Program-made: the position numbers and the translations under genes | Shown: piece by piece, positions 9,497 to 23,528 of the stretch | Layout of the letters: each line of letters begins with the position of its first letter | Position numbering within the stretch: the stretch's first letter is position 1 | The notes under the pieces: model-generated | The model's input: the letters and a program-made list of their open reading frames with translations, nothing else | Told to the model about the DNA's origin: nothing | Databases searched by the model: none | From: a virus | IMG/VR virus record: IMGVR_UViG_3300042864_000586 | Location: 1 to 35,173 of that record | Direction: 5' to 3' (one strand) | Length of the DNA stretch: 35,173 bases

Positions 9497-10224
9497 TATT
9501 TAAACGAGTTTTTTAGTTGTAATAAAAATTCTTCCTGTCTTTTGCGTTCAATCTCAACTGGATCAACTTCAACAGGAGTGGTAGCTTCCGACTTCTGCTC
9601 TTGGTCGATTAGTTTAAATATTTCCGACTTTATAAAGTTATACTCTATTTCTAACAATTCATAAGTTTCATCTTTTAAATTTCCACTCTTGAGTTGCTTG
9701 TACAATTTATCAAACCTATCTTGTAATCCTTGTGCATCCAATGATTTCATCCCCATAAATGGAGTATCAGGGTTAGCACCCCACAATACAGAAGAAAACT
9801 CATATAGTTTAACCTCTTGTATTTGGTAGTATGCAGGATTGCCTGCAGTTGCATCTACTTTGTTCTGCTTGATTGTGCTGAAACCAATTGAATGCTGATT
9901 AATTAAACCTTCTTGATAAAGCTTTAAAATATCTTCTCCAATTTCAGTATCTACAATCTTAGACTCAAAGTAAAGGCCATAGTTATCTTCTTTTAAGACA
10001 CTTGGCTTTCCTAGTGGACTATCTGTGCTATGATTGTGTAAGAACCATATCTCATTCTTTCCTAGTGGCCCTCTTTCATTAACTGTCTTAGTGAAAGCAC
10101 CTGGCATAATCATATCACCAACTAAGTCAATGTTGCCAAATTTAGATGCGTATCCAGTAATGATTCTTTTCTCAATATCAACATCTGTAATCTCACCAAC
10201 ACTTTTGTATTGTAAATTTCTCAT
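9496..10224 (-). CDS. Prohead protease, HK97 (U35-like) family
   Basis: 242 aa from the ATG at 10224; an upstream in-frame TTG (10248) lies inside the -7 promoter box and is unlikely to be used. N-terminal GYASKFGNIDLVGDMIMPGAF is diagnostic. Catalytic candidates are H65 in FLHNHSTDSPLGK and S112 in LINQHSIGF, matching the His-Ser pair of herpes/HK97-type proheads proteases. The C-terminal 80 residues are charged and helical. It cleaves the capsid delta domain during maturation. The adjacent capsid gene is translationally coupled. Confidence 0.93.
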   Translation of the reverse strand: MRNLQYKSVGEITDVDIEKRIITGYASKFGNIDLVGDMIMPGAFTKTVNERGPLGKNEIWFLHNHSTDSPLGKPSVLKEDNYGLYFESKIVDTEIGEDILKLYQEGLINQHSIGFSTIKQNKVDATAGNPAYYQIQEVKLYEFSSVLWGANPDTPFMGMKSLDAQGLQDRFDKLYKQLKSGNLKDETYELLEIEYNFIKSEIFKLIDQEQKSEATTPVEVDPVEIERKRQEEFLLQLKNSFK

Positions 10225-10245
10225 ATTATTCTTTCCGATTGCTTG

Positions 10246-10275
10246 CAAATATAATAAAAATAACTAAATACCAAA
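10246..10275 (-). promoter_or_regulatory. Bacteroidota-type promoter for protease and capsid
   Basis: Minus strand TTTG (10275-10272), 18 bp spacer, TATATTTG (10253-10246). It fills the short gap between the F-like gene stop and the protease ATG at 10224. Confidence 0.6.
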
Positions 10276-10277
10276 TT

Positions 10278-11015
10278 TTACTCAACGTACATTAGTCCGC
10301 AACGACAATTAACAAGTTCGTTAGCAGGAGCGGAGGCATCACCAGGTCTATCCATTAATGAACCACCAACAATAAACTTTTCATTTAAAGCTATTGCAGG
10401 ATAACTTGCCATTGCACTATGTGATGCTCTTTCTTTACCATCAAGAATAACTATCCACTTTTTCTTTAATGGCTTGTTTTGTAAACTTGCCCATTGCTCA
10501 CTAGCGAAGTTCATTATCTTCGTAAGTTCTGTTCTTGCAATTGTTTGACTACGGATAATATTCCTAGAAGTTAAATAAACAGATAGCAAAGTAATAATAG
10601 CTTCAGGAGAAATTCCTTCATCTATTTTTTGTTGTACATATTTCTGTACATCAATTTTTATTGTCCGAATGATACCAAGTATCATGATGAACTGCGAAAG
10701 GTCTTTAAACAGCAAAAGAAGTGCCAAAATCCAAGCGTTATAAAAGTCTTGGTTCTCATCCTTTTTTTGATACTTACTCAAGAATTCTCCTTGCTTAACA
10801 CCGAACTTAATGTAAGCCTCCTTTAGTATCTCCATAAACCATCTTTCGTTAAAGTGATTGGTGATATGAAAAGCTTGTGGTTTACGACCATCAAGTGATT
10901 TGATGTATGCTCTTGTTTCTGCTCCTAACTTGGTTTGTAGATAAGCAAAGAAAGCACGTTCATTCATATTGTGCCTTCTTCGCCAAGCTACTCGGTACAT
11001 TTCTTCTGTTACCAT
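10278..11015 (-). CDS. Head morphogenesis protein (Mu F / SPP1 gp7-like)
   Basis: 245 aa. The C-terminal half has the family signature: IARTELTKIMNFASEQW (about 159-175), KKWIVILDGKERASHSAM (about 184-201) with the R-x-x-H element, and the Cys-containing end NELVNCRCGLMYVE. Such minor head proteins are attached to the portal and enter the capsid with DNA. It has an internal hydrophobic stretch (FYNAWILALLLLFKDLSQFIMILGIIRTIKI) that is more apolar than usual. It overlaps the upstream 46-aa membrane gene by 7 bp and follows the portal, the classic order. Confidence 0.88.
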   Translation of the reverse strand: MVTEEMYRVAWRRRHNMNERAFFAYLQTKLGAETRAYIKSLDGRKPQAFHITNHFNERWFMEILKEAYIKFGVKQGEFLSKYQKKDENQDFYNAWILALLLLFKDLSQFIMILGIIRTIKIDVQKYVQQKIDEGISPEAIITLLSVYLTSRNIIRSQTIARTELTKIMNFASEQWASLQNKPLKKKWIVILDGKERASHSAMASYPAIALNEKFIVGGSLMDRPGDASAPANELVNCRCGLMYVE

Positions 11016-14380: not shown

Positions 14381-14405
14381 GTTATTAAGAACAATTCTAA
14401 ATTAG
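14381..14405. promoter_or_regulatory. 25-bp dyad, copy 1
   Basis: Left arm GTTATTAAGA (14381-14390), spacer ACAAT, right arm TCTAAATTAG. Arms match as inverted repeats at 7 of 10 positions. It is the copy nearest to terS, ending 81 bases before the start codon in leftward sense... its left edge lies 57 bases upstream of the terS ATG. Confidence 0.5.
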
Positions 14406-14419
14406 GTCAACCCTATTAT

Positions 14420-14441
14420 TATACTAAGTATATACTAAGTA
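14420..14441. repeat. Tandem 11-bp repeat
   Basis: TATACTAAGTA occurs twice head-to-tail (14420-14430 and 14431-14441), about one helical turn per unit, followed by an alternating AT tract. Confidence 0.8.
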
Positions 14442-14468
14442 ATATAATATATACTATATATATCTTTT

Positions 14469-14493
14469 CTTATTTAGAATAAATCTAAATAAC
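14469..14493. promoter_or_regulatory. 25-bp dyad, copy 2
   Basis: CTTATTTAGA (14469-14478), spacer ATAAA, TCTAAATAAC (14484-14493). Arms are complementary at 9 of 10 positions, with a perfect 9-bp core. This and copies 3, 5 and 6 define the consensus. Confidence 0.65.
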
Positions 14494-14494
14494 A

Positions 14495-14521
14495 TTAACT
14501 AACTGACTTTTAATTAGTTAA
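14495..14521. repeat. Inverted repeat TTAACTAA / TTAGTTAA
   Basis: Perfect 8-bp arms at 14495-14502 and 14514-14521 with an 11-bp spacer. It lies directly between dyad copies 2 and 3 and has a different sequence, so it may bind another factor or be chance in AT-rich DNA. Confidence 0.6.
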
Positions 14522-14544
14522 CCAAGTGTTCCGCCCAAAATCAG

Positions 14545-14569
14545 CTTATTTATACTCATTCTAAATAAG
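14545..14569. promoter_or_regulatory. 25-bp dyad, copy 3
   Basis: CTTATTTATA (14545-14554), spacer CTCAT, TCTAAATAAG (14560-14569). Arms complementary at 9 of 10. It lies just downstream, in the leftward sense, of the candidate late promoter at 14581-14608, where a bound protein could block transcription. Confidence 0.65.
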
Positions 14570-14580
14570 TGTTTACTGCA

Positions 14581-14608
14581 CAAACATAGTGATTCTTTTA
14601 TAAACAAA
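14581..14608 (-). promoter_or_regulatory. Candidate late promoter for the terminase operon (weak)
   Basis: Minus strand TTTG (14608-14605), 16 bp spacer, TATGTTTG (14588-14581). The boxes match the Bacteroidota consensus but the spacer is 2-3 bp shorter than in the other promoters of this genome. It would give a leader of about 250 bases containing dyads 1-3. Confidence 0.35.
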
Positions 14609-14730
14609 AACTATACTCTTTGTTTTTCTATCATTTATACAAATAATGTTGACAGGTATTAATGGATTTTTCTTAGGATTTTTTCATTTGGTACCCAACC
14701 CAGATTTGACCACCCCCTTTTGCTCCACTA

Positions 14731-14820
14731 CTTTTTTGATTCAGAAACGTGTTGCTCATGGGTATTCTGAATACAAAACGTATCCAAACAGTACTTTTGA
14801 ATAAAAAACGTAGCTAAAAT
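14731..14820. repeat. Imperfect tandem ~30-bp repeats with AAACGT core
   Basis: Copies at 14762-14790 and 14791-14820 share the order GTA, TTTGAATA-like, AAAACGTA, GCTAAA-like. A more diverged third copy (14731-14761) keeps TTTTGATTC and AAACGTG. Head-to-tail repeats of this size in a phage control region resemble iterons, that is, initiator-binding repeats. Confidence 0.6.
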
Positions 14821-15199
14821 GGTATGTACTGGGGGAGAAAGGTGGTAGGTCGGGGGTACCCAACCTTGATTTTTAAGGCATAACATAACGTAAAACCTAG
14901 TTAAAAATTGGGATGCTTGCTACTTAATTAGTTTTGAATAGCATAATGTAAGACAATAAGACCTTAATAGTTGACTTGTAACGAACGATATTAGACCTAC
15001 TAAGGAAAACATATTACCTAAGGGGTTACCTAGTCTTAAATCAAAGATTTGACCCCTTAAAAGCGGAACATTTACAAAAGTTTAAAAGGTGGTTTAAGAT
15101 ATTGGTATATAAACTTTATACTATGCGTTTATACTTTGTGTTTCTCTTTGTGTTTCTTGCTTCGGTAAAATAAGATTGATAATAAAAAACTACACGATA

Positions 15200-15248
15200 A
15201 GAAAGAAAGAAAGAAAGTAAGCAAAGAAAGAAATAAAGAAAGAGAGAT
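15200..15248. repeat. Purine tract with GAAA microsatellite
   Basis: About 49 bases of almost pure A/G on the plus strand, beginning with four to five GAAA units and continuing with degenerate GAAA/AAAG units. Such a tract can adopt unusual helical structure or ease unwinding; no coding potential. Confidence 0.8.
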
Positions 15249-15263
15249 ATAATTATTTAGTAT

Positions 15264-15288
15264 ACTATTTAGAATAAACTTATATAAC
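15264..15288. promoter_or_regulatory. 25-bp dyad-like site, copy 4 (half site)
   Basis: Left arm ACTATTTAGA (15264-15273) and spacer ATAAA match copy 2 closely, but the right arm CTTATATAAC agrees with the consensus at only 6 of 10 positions. Confidence 0.4.
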
Positions 15289-15318
15289 TATGTAACATAG
15301 TATACTTTCTTAAGAAAG
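15287..15318. repeat. Two adjacent palindromes
   Basis: ACTATGT-A-ACATAGT (15287-15301) and the perfect 14-bp palindrome CTTTCTTAAGAAAG (15305-15318) lie four bases apart. Both are candidate protein-binding sites in the control region. Confidence 0.7.
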
Positions 15319-15530
15319 GTAATATAAGTATATATAGAGTATATTAATAGTATAAAATTGTAATTGGAAAAAAAAGGAAAAATCTCAAACAAAAAAACGT
15401 TTTTAAATATATTTTTTAACACCTATTGAATAACCTTATAAAATCCACGTTTAAACACTATTAAACTAAATAAATAATATGGATCTTTTTTTTTATTTAC
15501 CTATTTATTTACCCTATTTACTTATTTAGA

Positions 15531-15555
15531 ATCAATCTACATAAGCCTATTATCT
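15531..15555. promoter_or_regulatory. 25-bp dyad, copy 5
   Basis: CTTATTTAGA (15531-15540), spacer ATCAA, TCTACATAAG (15546-15555). Arms complementary at 9 of 10. Confidence 0.65.
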
Positions 15556-15593
15556 TTATTTAAACGCTTTAAACGCAATATTTAAATAATGTG

Positions 15594-15618
15594 CTTATTT
15601 AGAATGAATATAAATTAG
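15594..15618. promoter_or_regulatory. 25-bp dyad, copy 6
   Basis: CTTATTTAGA (15594-15603), spacer ATGAA, TATAAATTAG (15609-15618). Arms complementary at 8 of 10. It ends 31 bases before the -33 box of the early promoter, a place from which an activator or repressor could act. Confidence 0.6.
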
Positions 15619-15649
15619 CCTATTTATTTAAAATTTATTGTCTTGTCTA

Positions 15650-15679
15650 TTGTATATCTGTAAACACTTATTACCTTTG
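15650..15679 (+). promoter_or_regulatory. Early rightward promoter
   Basis: TTG (15650-15652), 19 bp spacer, TACCTTTG (15672-15679), 29 bases before the first early ATG. Fits the Bacteroidota TTG/TAnnTTTG consensus with ideal spacing. Confidence 0.7.
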
Positions 15680-15708
15680 ACTTATCAAAAAACAAAAACA
15701 TACACAAA

Positions 15709-15924
15709 ATGGAAAACTTAAAACCAATAAGAGATAAACAAGTAGCCCATAAATTAACGGGCTTATGGTATAAATTGCATACTGTGCATATACACCAACA
15801 CCACAACATACAAACCGAAAACGATAAAAAATTAATTATTCAAATAATGGATGAAGTGTTGGAATTACGCGACCAAATTAGAACTAAAATATATTTAACA
15901 GAATTAGAAACAGAAAACAAATAA
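15709..15924 (+). CDS. Small early protein, unknown
   Basis: 71 aa, charged and histidine-rich in the centre (WYKLHTVHIHQHHNIQTENDKK), then a helix (LIIQIMDEVLELRDQIRTKIYLTELETENK). No recognised family. It is the first gene behind the early promoter, with an A-rich leader (CATACACAAAATGG) like those of other genes here. First-expressed small genes often modify the host, but nothing in the sequence shows a specific job. Confidence 0.7.
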   Translation: MENLKPIRDKQVAHKLTGLWYKLHTVHIHQHHNIQTENDKKLIIQIMDEVLELRDQIRTKIYLTELETENK

Positions 15925-15943
15925 CCTTTTAAATTTTACAATC

Positions 15944-16063
15944 ATGCAAAAATTAAACATTACCCCAAAACGCAAAGAAACACAAAGAAACGATATAGTA
16001 ACCGTCCTCGAATTTTGGGGGGTTATTACATTAGCCTTAATCTTTGCTACTTTATTATCTTAA
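15944..16063 (+). CDS. Small membrane protein
   Basis: 39 aa, MQKLNITPKRKETQRNDIVT followed by a C-terminal transmembrane segment (VLEFWGVITLALIFATLLS). The ATG lies 20 bases after the previous stop within an A/T-rich leader, and the positive N-terminus predicts an N-in tail-anchored protein. Function unknown. Supported by position, start context and a clean hydrophobic segment only. Confidence 0.55.
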   Translation: MQKLNITPKRKETQRNDIVTVLEFWGVITLALIFATLLS

Positions 16064-16104
16064 TAACTATACAAAATCTTTAATCTATAAAACAAATAAA
16101 CATT

Positions 16105-16917
16105 ATGAAAACAGTATTTAGCAATTCTGAAATTATGCACGTTTTTGCACAAAGAACACAAAGCGAAGCAAGAACGGCCAATAGTAATGTATTTTTTAAA
16201 GGGAATAAAATATATTCCTATGGATATCATTATTTATTAGGTGAATTTTTAGATAATAATACAATTTTAATAAACGATAAGGGCTATTCCGTTTCTACCT
16301 CAAAACATATTAACTATTTACGTCAAGCCGTTTCACAATATAAAAGGTTTTATACTACTGAAACGGATGAAAACTATTTATTAACAAAGCTAAATAGTGA
16401 ATTAGTAAAGTTAACACTAGCTAGAAAACCTGAAATTTATATTAATTCTATTAACTACCTTTTTTCTAAATATTGTGAATTTCAGGAATTTAAAAAATTA
16501 CCTATTAATAAAGAGATTAAAAAAATTCATAAGACCGCAAATAACGGGGCTAATTTAGAAACTTATAAAAAATTCATTAAAGCAAAAGAGGCAAAAGAAA
16601 AAAGAGAAAAACTAAAAAAGTTTAATGCTATTTATGAGGATTTTAAAAATTATGAAACTGATCGTATTTATAAAGGCTTGACGGGTTTTGACTATTTGAG
16701 AATATCAAAAGATAAACTATATATTGAAACTAGCCAACAGATACAGATTGAAATTGATGAAGCTAAAAAAATAGCAAAGGCTATAAAACTAGGTTTAAAT
16801 ATTGTAGGGCAAAAATTGAAATACTATACTATTAATAGATTTGATAAAAATGGTTTAGTAGCGGGGTGCCACAACATACCAAAAACCGAAATAGACTATA
16901 TTTTAAACTTAATTTAA
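16105..16917 (+). CDS. Early phage protein with YSYG motif, unknown function
   Basis: 270 aa, very lysine- and isoleucine-rich. The N-terminus contains HVFAQRTQSEARTANSNVFF (12-31) and KIYSYGYHYLLGEFLDN (35-51); similar N-terminal motifs (Q..AR..N..F..G..IYSYG.H) recur in uncharacterised proteins of many gut and environmental phages of Bacteroidota. The next 40 residues hold GYSVSTSKHINYLRQAV, the middle is a long charged helix (KKFIKAKEAKEKREKLKKF) and the end is a second small domain. The family's role is not known to me. Base composition is more AT-rich than the replication genes further right. Confidence 0.75.
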   Translation: MKTVFSNSEIMHVFAQRTQSEARTANSNVFFKGNKIYSYGYHYLLGEFLDNNTILINDKGYSVSTSKHINYLRQAVSQYKRFYTTETDENYLLTKLNSELVKLTLARKPEIYINSINYLFSKYCEFQEFKKLPINKEIKKIHKTANNGANLETYKKFIKAKEAKEKREKLKKFNAIYEDFKNYETDRIYKGLTGFDYLRISKDKLYIETSQQIQIEIDEAKKIAKAIKLGLNIVGQKLKYYTINRFDKNGLVAGCHNIPKTEIDYILNLI

Positions 16918-16939
16918 TTTTAACCTTAAATAAACAATC

Positions 16940-17278
16940 ATGAAAAATTACCTAATTAAAACAGATCATTCAATTCATAAATACGATTATAATCAAGGTG
17001 AATTAGAATTTATTAATGAATATCAAATGAGTGAAACTATTTTAGCTGAAAACCCTAAAAAAGCACTTGAAAAATACATTGATAAAGTTTTAGGATTTTC
17101 CTTTGATATTGATGAAATAGAAAATGATGAAAATATTTATTTTGATGTTTTAGTAGATCAAAACAATTTTCAAGCATCTACACATGATGTAGAATTATGG
17201 AAAAAAGGCGAACAAATCTTATATAATGATTGTGTTTATGTCAAAATTTATGAATTAATCGAAATTGTATTTATATGA
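16940..17278 (+). CDS. Early protein, unknown
   Basis: 112 aa, acidic, mixed alpha/beta. Starts MKNYLIKTDHSIHKYDYN and includes a helix AENPKKALEKYIDKVLG that looks like the small 'A.. .EAL..Y' helix seen in many phage accessory proteins. Stop overlaps the next ATG (ATGA at 17275-17278), so the two are probably made together. No family recognised. Confidence 0.7.
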   Translation: MKNYLIKTDHSIHKYDYNQGELEFINEYQMSETILAENPKKALEKYIDKVLGFSFDIDEIENDENIYFDVLVDQNNFQASTHDVELWKKGEQILYNDCVYVKIYELIEIVFI

Positions 17279-17505
17279 AACGCTATAGAATAAATAAAGA
17301 GGATGATTTGCACATATTTGTAAATTATAAAAGTGAAATTTATTTAAGACTTTTATATGAAAAAGGTTTTACTACAATATGGGACGCTGCAAATTTTGCA
17401 AAATCAAAATTAGATTTTAGGCTTAAAGGATTAGGCCGCCGCATTGAAATTGAAATTTACAATTTGAATACAAAGGAAACTAAATACTTAAGTACATTTT
17501 CATAA
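17275..17505 (+). CDS. Early protein, unknown
   Basis: 76 aa, basic (pattern RYRINKEDDLHIFVNYKSEIYLRLLYEKGF ... RRIEIEIYNLNTKETKYLS). Beta-rich with one central helix (WDAANFAKSKLDF). Translationally coupled to the upstream gene by ATGA. It is the last gene before a strong terminator cluster, so the 15.7-17.5 kb genes form one transcription unit. No family recognised. Confidence 0.7.
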   Translation: MKRYRINKEDDLHIFVNYKSEIYLRLLYEKGFTTIWDAANFAKSKLDFRLKGLGRRIEIEIYNLNTKETKYLSTFS

Positions 17506-17515
17506 AATTAAAATT

Positions 17516-17537
17516 AGGGCTTTTAGCCCTTTTTTTA
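17516..17537 (+). terminator. Intrinsic terminator of the first early operon
   Basis: AGGGCT (17516-17521), loop TTT, AGCCCT (17525-17530) followed by a run of eight T. It begins 11 bases after the last stop codon. Strong and unambiguous. Confidence 0.88.
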
Positions 17538-17553
17538 TAGACTTTATATTATT

Positions 17554-17596
17554 AGCCCGTTTTGGGCTTTTATTATTTATAGCCCTTTATAGGGCT
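17554..17596 (+). terminator. Two backup hairpins
   Basis: AGCCC-GTTTT-GGGCT (17554-17568) followed by TTTATT, and AGCCCT-TTAT-AGGGCT (17581-17596) followed by TTGTTTATTT. They repeat the arm sequence of the terminator at 17516 and may act as secondary terminators. Confidence 0.6.
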
Positions 17597-17628
17597 TTGT
17601 TTATTTAAGGTCTTACCCATGTATAAAA

Positions 17629-17653
17629 CCCTGTAAACAAATCGAATACAGGG
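17629..17653. repeat. Inverted repeat CCCTGTA / TACAGGG
   Basis: Perfect 7-bp arms at 17629-17635 and 17647-17653, 11-base loop, no T run after it; probably an RNA hairpin or a binding site rather than a terminator. Confidence 0.5.
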
Positions 17654-17847
17654 CAAAAGAAAGGGTAAAATAAAGGGTTTTTATATGGGCTTATTAATAG
17701 CCTGAAATACCTTATTGCCTAATTACTTTAATACTTTGAATTTAAGAGACTATTTTAGTCTTAAACATGGAAACGTATTGCCTCTACTATTTGAGTAGCT
17801 TAAAAGCCAACTATAGTACCTTAAAAACGATTTAAACGTAAAATATT

Positions 17848-18099
17848 ATGCACAATTTCAAAACATTACCCAAAATGATAAACAGAATTACCCACTTTGC
17901 ACAAATTAGAATAATTCTAAATAAGCTATTTCAAAAGCAAGGAAAAGTGAGAAAAGTTGGTCGGGCTCTTACAGGTAAAAAAGCTGATAGTTCCGGGAAA
18001 TTTTTGGAAAAAAAATTGATTTTTCTCCTGGCATTTATTTTTATGATCTGTTTGGCAAATTTAATTACGATTTTATTTTTGATAAATATTTTCCTTTAA
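17848..18099 (+). CDS. Doubtful small membrane protein
   Basis: 83 aa open frame from ATG. The first 55 residues are basic and show no pattern; the end is strongly hydrophobic (LIFLLAFIFMICLANLITILFLINIFL), compatible with one or two transmembrane segments. It overlaps a copy of the regulatory dyad (17901-17925), lacks a visible promoter, and is not coupled to neighbours. It may be real, but chance in AT-rich DNA is about as likely. Confidence 0.3.
   Translation: MHNFKTLPKMINRITHFAQIRIILNKLFQKQGKVRKVGRALTGKKADSSGKFLEKKLIFLLAFIFMICLANLITILFLINIFL
17901..17925. promoter_or_regulatory. 25-bp dyad-like site, copy 7 (half site)
   Basis: Right arm TCTAAATAAG (17916-17925) is a perfect consensus arm; spacer ATAAT; left arm ACAAATTAGA keeps only the inner five or so positions. 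It lies 230-260 bases upstream of the ribbon-helix-helix regulator gene. Confidence 0.45.
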
Positions 18100-18129: not shown

Positions 18130-18162
18130 TTTGCAATTATTAATATTAATTGTTTACATTTG
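18130..18162 (+). promoter_or_regulatory. Promoter of the regulator/recombination operon
   Basis: TTTG (18130-18133), 21 bp spacer, TACATTTG (18155-18162), 24 bases before the ATG of the regulator gene. The string TGTTTACATTTGT recurs almost unchanged in the promoter at 20238. Confidence 0.7.
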
Positions 18163-18186: not shown

Positions 18187-18375
18187 ATGGCACACGATAA
18201 GACAGAAACTAACAAGAAAAAAGCAGGTAGACCAAGACTGGAGCCTACATCAGTAATATCAGTAAGAATACCAACAAAAACTAAGCAACAAGTTGAGGAA
18301 AGATTTGGGAAACATTGGCAAGGATTATTTAAGGATTTTTGCCGAGTGTATTTATTGGATGATGAGAGTAAGTAG
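18187..18375 (+). CDS. Ribbon-helix-helix-like DNA-binding regulator
   Basis: 62 aa. Residues 11-18 (KKAGRPRL) form an AT-hook-like basic arm; residues 22-28 (SVISVRI) look like the DNA-contacting beta strand of a ribbon-helix-helix fold, followed by helix TKTKQQVEERF and helix WQGLFKDFCRVYLL. The family acts as dimers on palindromic operators. It has its own promoter and stands at the head of the second early operon, so it is the best candidate to bind the 25-bp dyads (inference). Acidic, short C-terminus. Fold is inferred from pattern. Confidence 0.65.
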   Translation: MAHDKTETNKKKAGRPRLEPTSVISVRIPTKTKQQVEERFGKHWQGLFKDFCRVYLLDDESK

Positions 18376-22797: not shown

Positions 22798-22909
22798 ACC
22801 TTACAAGGTATTTTCAATGGAGGTAGATCACGAAGAATGGCATGGTCAATTAGAACCAGGTAGATATACTAAATCAGGAATCTTAATCATTAAGCAAAAT
22901 GGAAACTAA
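22676..22909 (+). CDS. Single-pass membrane protein with soluble C-terminal part
   Basis: 77 aa. Transmembrane segment IYLIVILSAFYLVTILYL (about 8-25), then a short ordered domain (YKPYKVFSMEVDHEEWHGQLEPGRYTKSGILIIKQNGN). Coupled to the upstream 54-aa gene by TAATG. Ends with the stop/start junction AATGGAAACTAA, where the next gene begins. An alternative start six bases later (MKNLKIYL) is possible. Function unknown. Confidence 0.6.
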   Translation: MTMKNLKIYLIVILSAFYLVTILYLSTQSTMMNTQTHLEYKPYKVFSMEVDHEEWHGQLEPGRYTKSGILIIKQNGN

Positions 22910-23528
22910 ATTAGATAAATCAAGATGTAAGATTAGGATTTGCAAGTTCAATGATATTCGACACATTTTTGAGGAGTTCCATTATAAAAAAGCACACATG
23001 GGAGGAGGTATTAGTATATGCTTTGCAATGTTTATGGATGACAATCTTGTTGGTGGAAGTGTTTTAGGTAAACCAAGACATGAAAAAAAATATCATAATT
23101 GCATTGACATTAGAAGAATGGCTTGTTTAGATAGTTCTCCTTGTAATAGTGAAAGTTATTTTTTAGGTCAAATTATAAAATGGATTACTTGTAATACTGA
23201 TTACGACAATGTTTTATCTTACAGCGATATGACTGTTGGTCATTCAGGCACTATTTATAAGGCATCAAATTTTAAAGAAATAGGATTAACAAGTCCAACA
23301 AAATATGTAGAATGGTTAGGTAAGATTTACCATCCTAGAAGTTTATCTATTGATAGAGATTATTCTTATAGAATGAGAGAAGCAGTAGAAAAAGGAGAAG
23401 CATTAATTAAAGTTGGTTTACCTAAAAGAATTTGGTTATATACAATCAATAAAAACAAAAGAAATAAAAAATGTGTAATGGAGAGTTATAACAAAAACTT
23501 TTCTTATGGAACTTTATTTGAATCTTAA
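22899..23528 (+). CDS. Mom-like DNA-modification GNAT-type enzyme
   Basis: 209 aa. The pattern FHYKKAHMGGGISICFAMFMDDNLVGGSVLGKP (27-59), DIRRMACLDSSPCNSESYFLG (70-90) and LSYSDMTVGHSGTIYKASNF (106-125) is that of the phage Mu Mom family, which transfers a carbamoylmethyl group to adenine in phage DNA. Mu residues R101, S114, D139 and Y149 have exact counterparts in spacing here: R73 and S86 (13 apart), D110 and Y120 (10 apart). Modification protects DNA from restriction enzymes. It overlaps the upstream gene by 11 bases. Confidence 0.8.
   Translation: METKLDKSRCKIRICKFNDIRHIFEEFHYKKAHMGGGISICFAMFMDDNLVGGSVLGKPRHEKKYHNCIDIRRMACLDSSPCNSESYFLGQIIKWITCNTDYDNVLSYSDMTVGHSGTIYKASNFKEIGLTSPTKYVEWLGKIYHPRSLSIDRDYSYRMREAVEKGEALIKVGLPKRIWLYTINKNKRNKKCVMESYNKNFSYGTLFES

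Follow-up and report, generated by a model that had tools for sequence, protein, structure and literature searches.

Early and late genes diverge from a single control region in the phage genome studied here, and a repeated palindrome flanks that region, raising the question of what the palindrome is and which protein reads it. The window, by which we mean the whole stretch of 35,173 nt that was analysed, is a complete phage genome that begins and ends with the same 127 bp, a terminal repeat. Its late genes run leftwards from TerS/TerL, with terminase and portal recognised by Pfam, and its early genes, which include a RusA-like resolvase, DnaB and others, run rightwards; a 1.3-kb AT-rich gap separates the two sets. 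This divergent region has 24% GC and sits at the cumulative GC-skew minimum. No integrase was recognised in the window, and the phage, judged by its promoters and relatives, probably infects Bacteroidota. The genome also encodes a Mom-family protein (DNA modification) among the early genes (22899–23528; PF25680, 80 bits), and a GC-rich segment near the terminase genes (14690–14872), in which GGTACCCAACC is repeated, may be a cos or packaging site.

Coordinates and architecture of the dyads

A sequence-only reading of the window had described a family of 25-bp dyads, with 10-bp arms and a 5-bp spacer, as an operator or partition/origin system for both early and late promoters. Aligning the sites gave a refined 25-bp palindrome, CTTATTTAGAATNATTCTAAATAAG, which matches the window at 14381, 14469, 14545, 15521, 15594 and 17901 with 2–4 mismatches (24 positions scored) and matched simulated sequence nowhere at ≤5 mismatches. 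The 10-5-10 architecture gives way to 12-1-12, the supposed spacer being part of the palindrome (ATNAT is symmetric). Even with the pattern as first described, the window contains five sites at ≤3 mismatches against 0.04 expected from dinucleotide shuffles, so that the motif withstands comparison with shuffled sequence. With coordinates and architecture corrected, the dyads are real.

On the late side, dyad 1 (14381–14405, minus strand; GTTATTAAGAACAATTCTAAATTAG, four mismatches) is Fur-box-like, lies near TerS on the downstream side of the late promoter and is retained in close relatives only. Dyad 2 (14469–14493, plus strand; CTTATTTAGAATAAATCTAAATAAC, two mismatches) and dyad 3 (14545–14569, minus strand; CTTATTTATACTCATTCTAAATAAG, two mismatches) are centred at about +96 and +20, respectively, of the predicted late promoter. 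On the early side, dyad 5 (15521–15545, plus strand; CTTATTTAGAATCAATCTACATAAG, two mismatches) and dyad 6 (15594–15618, plus strand; CTTATTTAGAATGAATATAAATTAG, three mismatches) are centred at about −150 and −77 of the predicted early promoter. Dyad 7 (17901–17925, minus strand; four mismatches) lies farther along, within an open reading frame of 83 aa (17848–18099) and upstream of a gene for a 62-aa protein.

The original list of sites thus stands for 14381, 14469, 14545, 15594 and 17901, as does the 9-of-10 arm complementarity of copies 2, 3 and 5. The site placed at 15531 is really at 15521, and the early spacing is therefore 73 bp rather than 63 bp. The half-degraded site at 15264–15288 (plus strand) has 7 of 24 mismatches and 5 of 10 arm pairs, a quality for which chance alone predicts about 0.13 sites in the region; we dropped it as a full member. 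As a result, the three late sites face two convincing early sites instead of three, across a gap of about 0.95 kb instead of 0.7 kb. The sequence-only reading had also seen no copy of the motif in coding DNA, which is true of every site but 17901.

Promoter geometry and conservation among relatives

Predicted promoters of the Bacteroidota −33/−7 consensus type adjoin both the late and the early dyads. The late promoter predicted from sequence (14581–14608, minus strand; TTTG-N16-TATGTTTG) would drive TerS/TerL, and its −7 box precedes dyad 3 by 10–11 bp in 21 of 24 family members (11 bp in the window). The predicted early promoter (15650–15679, plus strand; TTG-N19-TACCTTTG) follows dyad 6; in relatives the centre of the nearest early dyad is at about −56 or about −76/−77, a shift of 21 bp, or two helical turns. 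A centre at about +20 of the late promoter suits a repressor, and the early position may suit an upstream activator or a loop. Phasing of dyad–promoter distances at 10.5 bp appeared strong when all offsets were used and fell to P ~0.15 when each offset was counted once; it is suggestive only.

A second element, GTAAAC/GTTTAC, occurs in the window at 14570–14576 (late start region), 15659–15666 (early promoter spacer) and 18151–18157 (promoter of the 62-aa gene) and recurs across relatives. Its 7-mer is not enriched genome-wide, although its position is conserved near the late start and the early spacer, and it is a candidate for a second operator, which the 62-aa protein might read.

A search with TerL yielded 53 viral loci, and dyads are present at every locus whose TerL is ≥78% identical and whose upstream DNA is long enough (these relatives span 78–99% TerL identity). 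Relative to the TerL start, one dyad lies at about −563 to −591, usually with a second at −618 to −669, and early-side dyads lie at about −1.0 to −1.75 kb. A dyad 5′ of the 62-aa gene, in the place matching 17901, is found in most relatives having that DNA. Scans of whole records at ≤3 mismatches found dyads in 13 of 15 relatives, and none with the reversed pattern. The 95 distinct family sites yield a symmetric consensus, CTTATTTAGA(A)TN..; in most sites the two halves differ in strength, CTTATTTAGAAT being the strong one. Dyads therefore occur at matching places in related phages, as the sequence-only reading would have it. Because these positions are kept in relatives and tied to Bacteroidota-type −7 boxes, we regard the dyads as an operator family for both early and late promoters; that half of the original proposal is well supported, and the partition or origin half is left with an AT-rich location at the GC-skew minimum in its favour.

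Likeness to the Bacteroidota Fur box

Several observations bear on the identity of the motif. First, a full-text literature search for its core returned one paper, on Fur of Riemerella anatipestifer, in which the Fur box was predicted as ATTTAGAATTATTCTAAAT and Fur bound box-bearing promoters by EMSA (PMC5609570). The inner 19 bp of the phage-family consensus are identical to this box; the identity holds for the family consensus, the window sites themselves having 2–4 mismatches over 24 positions. In both cases the sites lie near Bacteroidota-type promoters. Unlike the R. anatipestifer boxes, those of the window form a phage-borne array of 6–7 sites, mostly in one control region, and are not at iron genes.

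Second, in Bacteroidota genomes the palindrome lies upstream of genes for two FUR-family proteins and five TonB-dependent receptors and of feoA, and also before two iron-sulphur biosynthesis genes, one iron-sulphur assembly gene and the glutamyl-tRNA reductase gene hemA. A scan of 31 Flavobacterium genomes gave 73 near-consensus sites, compared with two for the reversed pattern; the near-consensus sites recur before sufS, before hemA with a divergent AraC-type regulator, and before a siderophore receptor. Tolerated substitutions are mostly alike in host and phage sites; G to A in the TAGA step is commoner in hosts. Some genome-scan matches were left out of this evidence: 13 of 25 fell in an interspersed repeat of one Dysgonamonadaceae genome and some others in longer hairpins. 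The repeat, in Nc350_bin116, holds 13 perfect copies of the 25-mer inside a longer unit (L113, L114, L116, L117 and nine further loci).

Third, the palindrome is present in 53 metagenomic viral stretches, and two control palindromes with shuffled arms gave 0 and 0. Among annotated phage records (E up to 0.5), 52 of 58 matches are Bacteroidota phages, many of them near-identical isolates, and a shuffled control query gave one match. In other box-bearing phages a −7 box (TAnnTTTG) follows the dyad by 0–14 bp in 27 cases, with 1.2 expected, which places the dyad where the −33 box would be; single copies stand before late genes in such phages. Cultured phages with the box or near matches comprise Polaribacter phages Freya and Danklef, Leeuwenhoekiella phage Arctus and Flavobacterium psychrophilum phage 6H. 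A 104-kb record considered as a source of host DNA (G013) was discarded, since it appears to be two phages joined.

From these sequence comparisons, it is highly probable that the dyads are Fur-family operators. Literature searches on phage Fur and on Bacteroidota Fur regulons turned up no prior report of Fur boxes in these phages. A role of the dyads as iterons of a replication origin, or as a partition site, we think very improbable. An array of sites in a 24% GC region at the skew minimum would fit such a role, but the sites keep a fixed relation to promoters, one dyad lies before an early gene kilobases away, the motif is identical to a transcription factor box, other phages have it as single copies before late genes, and no initiator or partition gene was recognised among the proteins scanned beside the array.

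Candidate ligands of the dyads

The Fur domain (PF01475) had no match in the window or in 15 relatives; 13 of 14 control genomes did yield the family. Polaribacter phages Freya_1 and Danklef_1 (Forsetiviridae), whose genomes come from a study that mentions neither Fur nor iron in its main text (PMC8776804), have almost perfect copies of the palindrome ahead of late genes and encode, before the small terminase gene, a 142-aa protein annotated as Fur family. This protein has the Fur DNA-binding half above the Pfam cut-off, without the metal-binding half, so that the box accompanies a Fur-type protein within phages too. We found it encoded in 17 records, every one of them from this group of Polaribacter phages. 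The palindrome is common to them and to the window's family, but a Fur-type protein was detected only in theirs: the window and seven relatives have no homolog of the Freya protein. With neither a Fur domain (window and 15 relatives) nor such a homolog (window and seven relatives) detected, we set aside a phage-encoded Fur in the window's family.

Since no Fur gene could be detected in that family, the simplest and likeliest ligand is host Fur, which, on the sequence evidence, probably regulates the early and late promoters of the phage. Three points weigh against this: it would be odd for a lytic phage to place its promoters under the control of a host repressor, the window sites have 2–4 mismatches, and the ligand could be the small basic 62-aa protein that the family itself encodes, whose gene has a dyad upstream.

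It is improbable, in our view, that the dyads are read by another, unrecognised phage protein with Fur-like specificity and act as activator sites of phage promoters. The co-occurrence of boxes and Fur-type protein in Freya and Danklef is in keeping with that possibility, and replacement of the −33 box by the dyad, as seen in other phages, is typical of activator sites; it is opposed by the two null searches above and by the position of the dyad downstream of the start at the window's late promoter.

The small basic protein is another candidate. Its gene (18187–18375, plus strand) is kept in all relatives examined, and its invariant residues are around a putative strand (S25, R27) and in a GRP motif. 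By eye it resembles a ribbon-helix-helix protein; it has no Pfam or PDB match, and its structure model, of low confidence (pLDDT 75), has two helices and no strand. Arc of phage P22 is likewise a small phage protein, with a palindromic operator of TAGA/TCTA half-sites five bases apart, and the TAGA-N5-TCTA of the dyads resembles it, though no homology was found. The dyads could then be operators of an Arc-like repressor that regulates itself and switches early to late expression, their likeness to the Fur box arising by convergence or because the phage protein competes with Fur. The invariant residues, and a dyad 5′ of the gene in most relatives, fit this account. The consensus in the window's family is nonetheless identical to the host Fur box, which makes convergence unlikely, and the 62-aa protein had no homolog in 22 unrelated phage records with the palindrome (a search run without a positive control). 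The sequence-only reading had put this protein forward as the ligand; we now consider that unlikely.

Returning to host Fur, the sites, their conservation, the identity of the family consensus to the Bacteroidota Fur box and the promoter geometry are direct observations, from which we infer Fur binding at the dyads, the sign of regulation and a response to iron. The host ferric uptake regulator, loaded with Fe(II), would occupy the dyads. On dyad 3 (about +20) and dyad 2 it would repress the late operon, and when bound at dyads 5 and 6 (−150 and −77) and at the dyad preceding the 62-aa gene, it would modulate early transcription, either by activation from upstream or through loops that join sites 73–88 bp apart. 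Phage development would then follow host iron status and, possibly, the dilution of Fur as phage DNA multiplies.

In enterobacteria, host Fur controls a phage-borne cargo gene. The window resembles that case in having host Fur, as proposed, on a phage-carried promoter, but its sites are at the early and late control promoters instead. In lambda-type divergent regions one operator family serves divergent control promoters; the window differs in having no repressor gene recognised in the region and an operator that is a host regulator's box.

The same boxes might serve as decoys that titrate host Fur, so that iron uptake is derepressed in infected cells and the phage promoters are little affected. 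The window has 6–7 boxes in 35 kb, compared with 0–5 near-consensus sites per Flavobacterium genome of 2–6 Mb, and box copy number increases with replication; yet the dyads hold fixed promoter positions and are not scattered, and we rate a decoy role as quite unlikely.

A broader reading, which we advance as speculation and consider rather unlikely, is that a Fur-family circuit is general to Bacteroidota phages, its early and late boxes being recognised either by the host's Fur or by a Fur-type DNA-binding domain that the phage has captured. As parts of that one reading, infection would depend on host iron and take its timing from replication, with new genome copies titrating Fur until the late genes are expressed and iron uptake by the host escapes repression. 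If Fur binds, a widespread set of Bacteroidota phages would tie their own control promoters, rather than a cargo gene, to the iron sensor of the host or to a Fur domain of their own that was captured; in marine and freshwater bacteria that are abundant, phage reproduction would be linked to the availability of iron. The cultured box-bearing phages make the Fur reading directly testable.

Further observations concern individual box-bearing phages. In Freya_1 gp09 (L200:4082–4510), the Fur-type half is fused to a C-terminal module, IxxGKVFVxxEG...PxxIGxAxLD. In six other phages with the box (L205–L209), the module is encoded by a small gene of its own close to those for the terminase. Matches to the Freya protein in those six are to this separate module, lack the DNA-binding half and are thus not evidence of Fur there; its fusion in Freya_1 is a hint that the module acts together with a Fur protein. 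Phage contig L109 has six near-perfect palindromes in about 1 kb (10029–10991), four of them within repeated units spaced 55–95 bp. Finally, a prophage of Flavobacterium sp. 1355 (L155, L217) has a Fur-like box (two mismatches in 23 bp) 9 bp upstream of a helix-turn-helix/S24 repressor gene, and further boxes near its late genes.
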